Shown: one piece after another, positions 46,465 through 50,123 of the stretch
Numbering within the stretch: the first letter of the stretch is position 1
How the letters are laid out: each line of letters opens with the position of its first letter
Source: Halogranum rubrum
Lineage (GTDB): Archaea > Halobacteriota > Halobacteria > Halobacteriales > Haloferacaceae
Direction: 5' to 3'
Length of the DNA stretch: 64,000 nt
Assembly (NCBI RefSeq): GCF_900114455.1
Contig: NZ_FOTC01000002.1
Location: forward strand, 777,012-841,011
Notes under the pieces: model-generated
What the model saw: the letters and a program-made list of their open reading frames with translations, nothing else
What the model was told of the DNA's origin: nothing
Database searches by the model: none
Program-made: the position numbers and the translations under genes

Positions 46465-47622
46465 TCAGGCCACGTTTCGTTCGATTAGCCCAGTGCCGCC
46501 GTCGAAGCGGTCGCTTCCGAGTGTGTCGATGTCGACGAGTGACGCTCGACCGTCACAGACGAGTTCGGCGACGAGTTGGCCCGTCGCGGGGGCGTGTTGG
46601 AACCCGTGGCCCGAGAAGCCAGCGGCGGTGACGAACCCTGGGACCGTCTCCTCGACGATTGGGTGGTGGTCGGGTGTGACGGCGTAGAGTCCGGCCCACC
46701 CCCGACGAAGCCGCGTGTCGGGACCGAAGTAGCCCGCGCAGTCGGCCGCGCGTTCGAGCGCCGTCGCCGCCCAGTCGAGGTCCAGCGACTTCGAGTACCG
46801 GTCGGGGTTCTGGTCGGGGTCGGTAGATGCGAAATGTCCACCGGCGATGGCAGCACCCTCCCGTTCGGGCCGAAAGTACGACCCCGTATCGAGGTCGATG
46901 GTGAGCGGCACGTCTTCGGGAACTGGCGTGTCCGGGTCGACGACGAGCGCCTGCCGACGACGCGGTGCGATGGGAAGGTCGACGCCTGCGAGCGTCGCGA
47001 GACGACTGGCCCACGCACCGGCAGCGTTCACGACGTGCGACGCTTCGATTTCCTCGCCGCCCGCGACGACGCCAGTGACGCGCCCAGCCTCGCCGTCTTC
47101 GCGTCGAACCGACGTTACGGGCGTCTTCGTCCGCACGTCAGCACCAGCCTCGCGGGCCGCGTTCGCGAACCCTTGGAGGGCGAGATACGGGTCGGCGAAG
47201 CCGTCCGTCGGCGAGTACGTCGCCGCCCGAAACGCGTCGACGTGGAGTTCGAGACAGTGTCTGCCCGCCTCCTCGGGAGTGAGAAGTTCGCTCGGCACGC
47301 CGTGTGCTCGTTGCATCGAAACCGCCTCCTCGAACGCGTCGGCCGTGGCCTCCGTCCGCGCGAGAAAGAGATAGCCCACCTGTCGGTAACCGATGTCGAC
47401 GCCGAACGCCGCCTCGAAGTCGTCCCAGACACGCATGCTCTGGACGGAGAGGTCGACGTTCACGGCCGTCGAGAACTGTGCGCGGATTCCGCCTGCCGAG
47501 CGTTCGGTGCTCCCATTGCCGAGCGTCCCCTTCTCGCAGACGACGACGTCCACTCCGCGTGCTGCGAGGTAGTAGGCGCTCGCGAGTCCGACGATGCCAC
47601 CGCCCACGACGACGACAGTCAT
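46465..47622 (-). CDS. FAD-dependent oxidoreductase of the DAO/glycine-sarcosine oxidase type
   Basis: The 385-residue enzyme starts with the FAD-binding Rossmann motif VVVVGGGIVGLASAYYLAARG. It has RSAGGIRAQFS (flavin contact), the substrate half YLFLARTEA, HVVNAAGAWASRLA and a C-terminal GLYAVTPDHHPIVEE plus GFSGHGFQHAPATG. It belongs to the D-amino acid/sarcosine oxidase superfamily. The divergent ornithine-cyclodeaminase-like gene suggests imino-acid or hydroxyproline chemistry, which is inference. ATG 47622 begins the Rossmann strand; the upstream extension is not used. Confidence 0.9.
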   Translation of the reverse strand: MTVVVVGGGIVGLASAYYLAARGVDVVVCEKGTLGNGSTERSAGGIRAQFSTAVNVDLSVQSMRVWDDFEAAFGVDIGYRQVGYLFLARTEATADAFEEAVSMQRAHGVPSELLTPEEAGRHCLELHVDAFRAATYSPTDGFADPYLALQGFANAAREAGADVRTKTPVTSVRREDGEAGRVTGVVAGGEEIEASHVVNAAGAWASRLATLAGVDLPIAPRRRQALVVDPDTPVPEDVPLTIDLDTGSYFRPEREGAAIAGGHFASTDPDQNPDRYSKSLDLDWAATALERAADCAGYFGPDTRLRRGWAGLYAVTPDHHPIVEETVPGFVTAAGFSGHGFQHAPATGQLVAELVCDGRASLVDIDTLGSDRFDGGTGLIERNVA

Positions 47623-47697
47623 AGGGTTGCTACCACCGTCTGTTTGATAAGCGTTGGCAGGCACCAACCTCTATCCGGCGGCGGCCGTACGGACGGT

Positions 47698-48678
47698 ATG
47701 CTTCGACTCCTCTCCGACGACGATATCTCGGCGCTCCTCGACCTCGAATCGCTCCTCCCGGTCGTCGAAAGCGCGTTCGTCGAACAGGGCCGTGGTGCGG
47801 TCGAACGCCCCGACCGGCCACACTATCCGGTCGGGGCCGGACTCGACGGCGACGACCCACTCGGGACGGCGCTGGCGATGCCCGCGTACATCCACGGCGC
47901 GGCGTACTTCGCGACGAAACTCGCCAGCGTCCACGAGGGTAACGTCGACTGCGGGTTACCGACCGTGAACGCGACGATTGCGCTGATGGACGCCGCGACT
48001 GGACTCCCTGCGGCCTACATGGCAGGGACACGCATCACCAACGCCCGGACGGGATGCATCGGCGGCCTCGCGGCGAAGTACTTGGCGAACGAACCGGTTA
48101 CGCTCGGGGTCGTCGGTGCGGGTACACAAGCCCGGTGGCAAGCACGCGCAATCGCCGCGGCGACGACCGTCGAGCAGGTCCGCGTCTATTCGCCCAGTGA
48201 CTCGCGGAAGTCGTGTGCGGCGGCACTCCGTGAGGAGGGACTGGATGCGGTGGCAGTCGACTCTCCGGCCGAGGCCGTCTCCGAGGCATCGGTCGTCGTC
48301 ACGGCGACGACGAGTACCGACCCCGTCTTCGACGGTGAAGCGTTGCAACCGGGGACGCTCGTCGTCGCCGTCGGGGCGTACACTCCGGCGATGCGCGAAC
48401 TCGACACGACGACGGTCGAACGGGCGGCACGCGTCTTCGCCGACGTTCCCGAGGAGGCGGCCACTGTCGGTGACCTCGCTCACGGTTCGCTCGATTCGGT
48501 CGACGCCGACGACCTCCTCCCGCTCTCCGAGGTGTTCGAAGGCCGAGTTGGCCGCGAGAGGTCGGAGGAGATACTCGTCGTCGAGTCGGTCGGTTCGGCC
48601 GTCCTCGACGCGGCGGCGGCGGAGTATCTCCTCGAACGGGCAGTGGACGCAGACGTCGGCACGACGGCGTCGCTCTGA
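47698..48678 (+). CDS. Ornithine cyclodeaminase / mu-crystallin family dehydrogenase
   Basis: The 326-residue protein has FATKLASVHEGN, AAYMAGTRITNARTGC, and the NAD-binding GVVGAGTQARWQARAI. The C-terminal half contains VVTATTSTDPVFDGEAL and VGAYTPAMRELD. This is the OCD/mu-crystallin/alanine-dehydrogenase family, which covers ornithine cyclodeaminase, ketimine reductase and pyrroline-2-carboxylate reductase. The substrate is not resolved. It diverges from the FAD oxidase over 75 bases, so both are probably controlled together. Confidence 0.9.
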   Translation: MLRLLSDDDISALLDLESLLPVVESAFVEQGRGAVERPDRPHYPVGAGLDGDDPLGTALAMPAYIHGAAYFATKLASVHEGNVDCGLPTVNATIALMDAATGLPAAYMAGTRITNARTGCIGGLAAKYLANEPVTLGVVGAGTQARWQARAIAAATTVEQVRVYSPSDSRKSCAAALREEGLDAVAVDSPAEAVSEASVVVTATTSTDPVFDGEALQPGTLVVAVGAYTPAMRELDTTTVERAARVFADVPEEAATVGDLAHGSLDSVDADDLLPLSEVFEGRVGRERSEEILVVESVGSAVLDAAAAEYLLERAVDADVGTTASL

Positions 48679-48747
48679 CCACGCGATTGTTCGATCACTC
48701 GCCGCTCTCTCTGCGGCCTGAATGGCTCAGCGTGTGCGCATTTCTGC

Positions 48748-48810
48748 ACAGATATCTGTACACCTATCTAGAAATCTTTGTAGATATCTGTCCATACAGC
48801 TATCTGTCAG
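48748..48810. repeat. Iteron-like TATCTGT repeats upstream of parA
   Basis: The perfect palindrome ACAGATATCTGT (48748-48759), a second AGATATCTGT (48782-48791) and TATCTGTCAG (48801-48810) put TATCTGT at 48753, 48785 and 48801. These spacings are 32 and 16 bases. The array lies 30-90 bases upstream of the parA TATA box. It may be a centromere-like site, an operator, or both. The 10-mer TATCTGTCCA recurs at 30927-30936. Confidence 0.55.
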
Positions 48811-48838
48811 TAGTGTCTAGTGCGAATGTCTGACGGAA

Positions 48839-48846
48839 CTTTATGT
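48839..48846 (+). promoter_or_regulatory. TATA box for the parA-like operon
   Basis: CTTTATGT ends 24 bases before ATG 48871, so the mRNA should be leaderless and the earlier in-frame Met is excluded. Confidence 0.65.
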
Positions 48847-48870
48847 ACGGGTCAACGGTACACCCCCGGT

Positions 48871-49725
48871 ATGAAACGGGCAGTCACTTTGTGGAGCGAG
48901 TCCGGTGGTGTCGGCAAGACGACGCTGGCGACGAACACCGCCGCGGCGCTCGGTCGACGCGGTGCCGACGTGTTGGTGGTCGACCTCGACCCGCAACTCG
49001 GGAGTCTCACCGACCACGTCGGCTACGGCGAGTTGAAGACCGGTGACCGCGACCACCTCGGTGACCTGTTGCTCGCGGAGGACCGCGACGCGAGTCACCT
49101 CATCGTCGACGCGGGCGCGTTCGACCTCATCCCCTCCCACGAGGGGTTGGCGAACATCGAGAGCGAGATGGCCGCCCGCGGGACGAACCTCCGAGAGTTC
49201 CGCCTTCGGTCGGCGTTGACGCCGCTCGCAGGCGAGTACGACTACTTCCTCATCGACCCACCGGCGACGCTGAACGTCCTCGTGGACAACGCACTCGTCG
49301 CCGCGCGCGACGTGGTCATCCCCATCGAGTTGACCCGAAAGGGAAGCGTCTCCATCGACGGCTTGGAGGACACGCTCGACAGTATGCAACGCGGCTTCCA
49401 AACGTTCGACGAGGACTTCCGACTGGGTATCCTCGCTGTCGTCCCCAACGAAGTCGGCGACTCGAACATCTACCGAGAGGTACGCGAACAACTGGAGACC
49501 GACGGCAAACCGGTCACGCCGTTCGGTATCCGCAAGCGCGACGTCCTGAAACAGGCGTGGCAGGCGCAGATGGACCTGTTCACCTTCGCCGATTCGCCGG
49601 ACACACGTGACCTGCGTGACTACGAGAAAGACCTGCTCGACCAGTTCGAGGCCGTCGCACGCATCATCGAGGAAGGGTCTGTCGACGCCGCAACACTGTC
49701 CGAGGTAGAGGAGGTGGCCCGATGA
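48871..49725 (+). CDS. ParA/MinD-like ATPase lacking the signature lysine
   Basis: The 284-residue protein is a ParA-type ATPase: Walker A in residues 11-18 (SGGVGKTT), VVDLDPQLGSL (A'), and YFLIDPPATLNVLV (Walker B). A C-terminal PFGIRKRDVLKQAWQ segment follows. The deviant Walker A normally reads KGGVGKTT; here S11 replaces the signature Lys, as reported for McdA-type cargo-positioning ATPases. The stop overlaps the partner gene by four bases. No ParB is adjacent. It probably partitions a replicon or positions a cellular cargo. Confidence 0.88.
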   Translation: MKRAVTLWSESGGVGKTTLATNTAAALGRRGADVLVVDLDPQLGSLTDHVGYGELKTGDRDHLGDLLLAEDRDASHLIVDAGAFDLIPSHEGLANIESEMAARGTNLREFRLRSALTPLAGEYDYFLIDPPATLNVLVDNALVAARDVVIPIELTRKGSVSIDGLEDTLDSMQRGFQTFDEDFRLGILAVVPNEVGDSNIYREVREQLETDGKPVTPFGIRKRDVLKQAWQAQMDLFTFADSPDTRDLRDYEKDLLDQFEAVARIIEEGSVDAATLSEVEEVAR

Positions 49726-50123
49726 CGAAAGACGACCGGTACGGTGCGGCCGGTGACACGTACGGGTCGAGCGGTGACCAGTACGACGACGCCCCGAGTC
49801 AGAACGGAACTGGTGCAGAGACGGCTGGCGCTGCCGCGGACGACGCCGAGACGGAGACGGACGACTCGGCGAACGACGGCGTCGCCGACCTGCCGTTCAT
49901 CTTCGCGCGACGCACGGTGAAGGCGGACCGCGACGCGCTTCCAGTCTACGTCCGTGCGTCGACTGCCGACCAGATCGGCGAACTCGAACGAGAACTCGAC
50001 GACCGGTTCGACGGCGACGACGTGATGTCGCTCGACGTGCGCGAAGCGGTGGTAAAAGCAGGCTTGCGAAACGTCGAGGACGTCGTCGACGTGATGGAGA
50101 CGTGGGGATACGGCCGCCGATGA
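49722..50123 (+). CDS. ParA-partner protein with disordered N-terminus, 133 aa
   Basis: Residues 1-55 are low-complexity Gly/Ala/Asp/Thr/Gln, probably disordered. Residues 58-133 form a compact helical domain: FIFARRTVKADRDALPVYV, ADQIGELERELDDRF, SLDVREAVVKAGLRNVEDVVDVMETWGYG. A similar 'RR-V-K-x-x-R ... DVREA ... WGYG' arrangement follows ParA genes on haloarchaeal plasmids, from memory. It has neither a ParB nuclease fold nor an obvious HTH. Translational coupling to parA (ATGA) argues that it is the adaptor linking ParA to its cargo or centromere. Confidence 0.78.
   Translation: MTKDDRYGAAGDTYGSSGDQYDDAPSQNGTGAETAGAAADDAETETDDSANDGVADLPFIFARRTVKADRDALPVYVRASTADQIGELERELDDRFDGDDVMSLDVREAVVKAGLRNVEDVVDVMETWGYGRR

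Follow-up and report, generated by a model that had tools for sequence, protein, structure and literature searches.

A probable type I-like DNA-partition module of haloarchaea pairing a ParA-family ATPase with a relocated lysine and an apparently undescribed adaptor

Organization of the locus

The window, a 64,000-nucleotide stretch of contig C8 in the Halogranum rubrum assembly (genome G000; 4.57 Mb in 17 contigs), carries a ParA-family ATPase gene immediately followed by a gene for a small acidic partner protein, with short repeats and a promoter element upstream of the pair (Table 1). The N-terminus of the ATPase reads MKRAVTLWSES11GGVGKTTL; as the first-pass annotation of this DNA had claimed, its Walker A motif carries Ser11 in place of the Lys of ParA/MinD proteins. 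The protein is a deviant Walker ATPase with a ParA fold, matching the AAA_31 (E = 1.2e-30) and CbiA (E = 3.3e-17) families, and its relatives in PDB searches were Soj/ParA and McdA. It scored below the cut-offs of the archaeal MinD model (TIGR01969; 40.5 bits vs 201.75) and of the NCBIfam ParA_partition model (NF041546; 76.1 vs 180). The best named relative is a Halogranum amylolyticum locus, whose ParA is 93% identical.

The overlap of the two genes was also read correctly in the first pass, the ATG of the partner lying inside an ATGA and its product being 133 residues long. From haloarchaea, 94 distinct parA–partner loci were collected, mostly through partner similarity. The adjacency that the first-pass annotation had singled out for checking is constant in this collection: the partner comes directly after parA in every locus, overlapping or abutting it with an offset of -4 (81 loci), -1 (9) or 0 (4).

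Table 1. Features of the parA–partner locus, in window coordinates
Feature	Position	Strand	Basis
Putative centromere (parS-like), five degenerate 12-bp iterons	48737..48808	+	Motif fit, 13 orthologues
Promoter element GTCTGACG-N4-TTTAT (TATA-like box)	48828..48844	+	About 42 bp upstream of the parA ATG
ParA-family ATPase gene	48871..49725	+	284 aa, ATG at 48871, Ser11 instead of the signature lysine
Walker A, S11GGVGKTT	48901..48924	+	Read from the sequence
K157-G158, displaced lysine at the McdA K151 position	49339..49344	+	94/94 loci and McdA alignment
Adaptor (partner) gene, 133 aa, proposed centromere-binding protein	49722..50123	+	ATGA overlap, adjacency in 94/94 loci
N-terminal K3-D-D-R-Y7 motif, proposed ParA-activating peptide	49728..49742	+	KxDRY in 15 partners
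C-terminal folded domain, proposed DNA-binding	49890..50120	+	AlphaFold, invariant residues

Upstream iterons and promoter element

Three TATCTGT elements had been noticed upstream of the promoter; they are present at 48753, 48785 and 48801, spaced by 32 and 16 bases, and all lie 5' of the TATA-like TTTAT at 48840. These copies are part of a five-site array of 12-bp iterons starting at 48737, 48749, 48761, 48781 and 48797 (consensus tAGATATCTGgA); the 32/16 spacing reflects a partial view of this array. The perfect palindrome ACAGATATCTGT lies at 48748 within this putative centromere. Among 13 orthologues of the window locus the 12-bp period is pronounced, with self-match z values, measured against dinucleotide shuffles, of 12.5 at lag 12, 8.4 at lag 24 and 6.4 at lag 36. 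In the largest plasmid subgroup the period is 13 bp (z = 25.8); further subgroups show 13/26 periodicity. Repeated 7-mers exceeding z > 2 against shuffles occur upstream of parA in 61% of loci; the figure is 3% within parA itself and 7% in the region after the partner. An iterated site near the operon, one of the hallmarks of type I ParABS systems, is thus present as 12-/13-bp arrays that can be regarded as a putative centromere. Elsewhere in the host genome no second iteron array was detected, only scattered single matches.

In 33 of 95 regions upstream of parA, the exact GTCTGACG occupies -41 to -45; the window contains one match, where 0.04 are expected. Either GTCTGACG or GTCTGACT stands in this interval, just before the TATA-like box, upstream of most of the parA genes fetched; the position is kept across subfamilies and recurs before the Lys-11 parA genes of PhiCh1, ChaoS9 and phiH1. 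The element is possibly a shared regulator site or an extended BRE. CdrS, which regulates sojA/B/E (PMC7439475), was considered for the GTCTGAC element; its binding motif is absent from the text of that article.

Distribution on plasmids and chromosomes

Partner homologues were identified in 114 of 194 haloarchaeal genomes by a single-sequence search and, using a profile of the C-terminal domain, in 254 of 392 genomes representing 66 of 86 genera; in a whole-phylum sample, matches were confined to the same order. Where the partner is annotated on plasmids it is labelled 'hypothetical protein', and a literature search, conducted largely outside subscription journals, returned no publication describing this adaptor. 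The family is widespread, haloarchaea-specific and unnamed, and it is apparently undescribed.

The partner is encoded on at least 110 plasmid records and the ParA on 262, among them Halobacterium salinarum pHS2, Haloferax mediterranei pHME132 and H. gibbonsii pHG3. Plasmid copies often lie 1–5 kb from an orc1/cdc6 gene, and in five genomes (G056, G100, G022, G019 and G091) the distance is 1–3 kb. Haladaptatus megaplasmids carry orthologues of the window pair (ParA 78%, partner 57% identical), and a direct orthologue on a 540-kb Haladaptatus salinisoli plasmid has orc1/cdc6 4 kb away. Multiple copies in one genome, counted by eye, are nearly always on different contigs. The host genome itself contains at least 13 orc1/cdc6 genes and 16 CbiA/ParA-family matches over cut-off, which is consistent with many replicons.

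Among viral contigs, Ala-type pairs turned up in just three cases (L121–L123). The haloviruses PhiCh1, ChaoS9 and phiH1 were considered as members of the family and set aside because their ParAs are of the Lys-11 type and have other adaptors; directly after each of these parA genes (L186, L187, L188), an overlapping gene encodes a small acidic protein annotated as 'uncharacterized' or 'hypothetical'.

The window pair is chromosomal, and the order parA–partner–HalX regulator–TrmB–guaB is kept in Halogranum, Halegenticoccus and Haloprofundus, with dN/dS values of 0.09 for ParA and 0.14 for the partner C-terminus that indicate purifying selection. The orc1/cdc6 gene nearest to a chromosomal copy is 190–300 kb away, and only a few genera have close orthologues on the chromosome; the locus is therefore no general system of haloarchaeal chromosome segregation. 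In four of the genomes (G100:C1, G056:C1, G022:C1 and G019:C1) the distance to one particular orc1/cdc6 is fairly constant, at 190–230 kb. A block of FAD oxidoreductase, ornithine cyclodeaminase (OCD), parA and partner, at 46465–50123 in the window, is common to a Halomicrococcus plasmid (L051, NZ_CP100466) and to Halogranum and Halegenticoccus chromosomes, which is evidence that the locus has been exchanged between chromosome and plasmid.

The chromosomal copy probably still works on the iteron-carrying chromosome segment. A less probable but serious alternative is that it derives from a plasmid par locus, was domesticated and has stopped segregating the chromosome. It would then persist as an autoregulated remnant, or as an incompatibility or anti-plasmid element that acts on incoming plasmids with a matching par type by titration or competition. 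The distance from orc1, the block common to the Halomicrococcus plasmid and the chromosomes, and the plasmid-borne direct orthologues in Haladaptatus and Halomicrococcus all accord with domestication, whereas the constraint on ParA, partner domain and iterons across at least three genera with kept chromosomal synteny favors a copy that is still at work.

Relocation of the signature lysine

Residue 11 of the 94 partner-linked ParAs is Ala in 77, Ser in 17 and Lys in none, and residues 157–158 are Lys-Gly in all of them, an invariance that is conditional on the mostly partner-based collection. The signature lysine of the KGGxxK(S/T) motif, by which type I ParABS ATPases are recognized, is absent from all 94. 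The first-pass annotation had allowed that most close homologues might carry Lys at this position, which is not the case, and had entertained the idea that plasmid ParA copies keep it, which was wrong because these copies lack the Lys too. The comparison of residues 11 and 157 also took in other ParA/MinD proteins of haloarchaeal, viral and bacterial origin: K157 occurs in every Ala/Ser-11 protein examined (about 100) and in 0 of 52 Lys-11 proteins.

The best PDB match for a profile of the K157 segment was McdA of known structure, with McdA LLIPAEASTKGVNS aligned to VVIPIELTRKGSVS of the ParA family. K157 falls exactly in the column of the displaced McdA lysine (segment IPAEASTKG); the McdA P-loop reads SLSGGQGKTT, so that S11 aligns with SGGQGKT and K157 with STKG. 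The aligned lysine is residue 171 of the 6noo chain, which, after subtraction of a presumed 20-residue tag, we take to be McdA K151. In 2019, Schumacher et al. reportedly found that K151, which is distant from the P-loop, enables McdA dimerization; the signature lysine at position 11 normally reaches across the ParA dimer. McdA is an active ATPase despite having no signature lysine (PMC6328274, PMC9178275). The McdA analogy drawn in the first pass therefore extends to individual residues, S11/K157 corresponding to Ser/K151.

These alignments suggest that K157 functionally replaces the signature lysine, as K151 does in McdA. K157 could in principle have another role, such as a DNA contact, in a weak or non-sandwich ATPase and be unrelated to the missing lysine; we consider this improbable, given the perfect anticorrelation between K157 and Lys-11 and the placement of K157 in the McdA lysine column.

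In the phylogenetic tree, Ala/Ser ParAs form a single clade (support 96/80). McdA falls outside it on a long branch in the free tree, and a joint clade of McdA and Ala/Ser ParAs is not rejected (AU p = 0.35); the lysine may have moved once, in a common ancestor with McdA, or twice independently. The McdA lysine relocation would in this light be no carboxysome oddity, as it marks a large archaeal clade proposed to act in DNA partition, and the relocated-lysine clade bears on how ParA-type ATPases dimerize.

The partner protein

The earlier description of a low-complexity first half and a helical second half agrees with the AlphaFold model, in which residues 1–57 are unstructured and a strand/helix domain follows; the hydrophobic content is 9% in residues 1–56 and 35% in residues 57–133. 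The C-terminal domain was modeled as a monomer with two short strands and three helices (pLDDT 72, pTM 0.63) and contains the invariant residues P58, R63, V66 and R70. At the N-terminus, the 94 partners fall into two motif classes, KxDRY (15, the window's subclade) and MKxG (79), and every one has Lys or Arg within residues 2–8; the linker after the motif consists of 92% disorder-promoting residues. ParA partners are known to activate the ATPase through basic N-terminal peptides, and by analogy the N-terminal basic motif of this partner may activate ParA. For one McdB, the first 20 residues are enough for McdA binding (PMC12204374).

Searches of Pfam, NCBIfam and PHROGs gave no match to the partner above chance, and neither a fold search nor a comparison of its profile with PDB sequences found a fold match for the C-terminal domain. 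No homology to the ParB CTPase, HTH or RHH families was detected in the Pfam, NCBIfam, PHROG and PDB searches. An RHH fold appeared suggestive by eye; it is not claimed, since hhalign gave 0.1% against one RHH-like adaptor from the data and Foldseek returned only weak UBA-like bundles. The earlier remark that the locus has no ParB is best taken to mean that the partner itself is the probable ParB analogue.

Another S-type ParA that has K157 is encoded elsewhere in this genome (G000:C8:656165-657540; L120:2166-3544). Its 178-aa partner has the same N-terminal motif (MSKKDRY) and an unrelated C-terminus that ends in a hydrophobic segment followed by RRFRRRD, and this pair was seen in only this genome among 194. 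The 178-aa protein may be an adaptor for a membrane or other cargo.

Cargo and proposed mechanism

Linkage, lysine swap, plasmid/orc1 association, iterons and purifying selection are directly established for the locus, and we propose that the two genes form, with good probability, a type I-like DNA-partition (par) module. It belongs to a haloarchaea-specific family and would bind its centromere through an undescribed adaptor; DNA binding, ATPase activity and segregation are predicted for it. DNA is almost certainly the cargo, since more than 100 haloarchaeal plasmids carry the family, in many cases beside orc1/cdc6, and its loci have centromere-like iterons; the scattering of several copies per genome over different contigs points the same way. 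Of the first-pass proposal of a positioning or partition module with an unstudied adaptor, the module, the adaptor and the missing signature lysine are retained and the cargo is narrowed to DNA, the storage granule that it also listed finding no support. A McdAB-like role, in which the pair would position such a granule or a protein assembly and the small protein would serve as cargo adaptor, is very unlikely: the McdA lysine arrangement, a first half disordered as McdB proteins are (PMC8262871) and the second S-type pair, with its shared motif and different hydrophobic C-terminus, would fit, but the plasmid location beside replication genes, the iteron array upstream of parA and the lack of a conserved neighboring cargo gene speak against it.

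In the proposed DNA-partition mechanism, the small second protein would act as the ParB analogue, its C-terminal domain binding the periodic iterons upstream of parA as both centromere and operator. ParA would dimerize on ATP, with K157 taking over the cross-dimer role of the position-11 lysine, and bind the nucleoid non-specifically; the short basic motif in the disordered N-terminus of the partner would touch ParA-ATP and stimulate hydrolysis. ParA could then move the iteron-bound DNA by a diffusion-ratchet cycle of the kind known from ParA and McdA. Plasmids and megaplasmids would be what the module segregates in most species, with one diverged copy per replicon; in Halogranum and its relatives the module lies on the chromosome, next to guaB.

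As a speculative extension, which we hold only tentatively, haloarchaeal replicons, in some genera including the main chromosome, could be segregated by a one-pair-per-replicon family in which the lysine relocated independently of McdA, the adaptor fold is new, specificity derives from diverged 12–13 bp iterons and the cargo domain of the adaptor is swappable, as in the second S-type pair. How polyploid, multi-megaplasmid haloarchaea share out their replicons is a listed outstanding question (PMC5120986). The locus offers a candidate partition system for about two thirds of haloarchaeal genomes, comprising a gene pair, a site and testable residues, and its carriers include the genetically tractable Haloferax mediterranei and Halobacterium salinarum.

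Comparison with known systems

The module resembles type I partition systems (ParA/ParB/parS and the small ParF/ParG- and delta/omega-like variants) in its ParA-fold ATPase, its small adaptor, encoded downstream, whose disordered N-terminus is basic, the iterated, here putative, centromere upstream of the operon and the plasmid location beside replication genes. It differs from them in having invariant K157 instead of the position-11 signature lysine, in an adaptor with no detectable ParB, HTH or RHH homology, and in its restriction to haloarchaea. With McdAB (beta-McdA type 1) it shares the Ser in place of the signature lysine, a lysine that occupies the same alternative site within a PxExxxKG motif (6noo/6nop) and a partner with a disordered region. 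Unlike McdAB, it is associated with plasmids, chromosomes, iterons and orc1 rather than carboxysomes: the neighbors of the loci are replication or metabolic genes, and the partner profile had no McdB match among PDB sequences.

SegAB, which acts in chromosome segregation in Sulfolobales, is likewise an archaeal two-gene system; it pairs a ParA with an archaea-specific DNA-binding adaptor, a function proposed for the present partner, and has upstream sites. The ParA active-site variant differs, and neither the profile search against all PDB sequences nor the fold search matched the partner to SegB. The haloarchaeal Lys-11 ParA and adaptor pairs (contig C5 of the host genome; PhiCh1, ChaoS9 and phiH1) have the same operon organization and an acidic-linker adaptor but a canonical KGG Walker A and no K157. 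Comparison of the C-terminal domain of the C5-type adaptor with that of the partner gave 90.7% in hhalign, and the partner is likely a distant relative of the adaptor that serves Lys-11 haloarchaeal ParAs.
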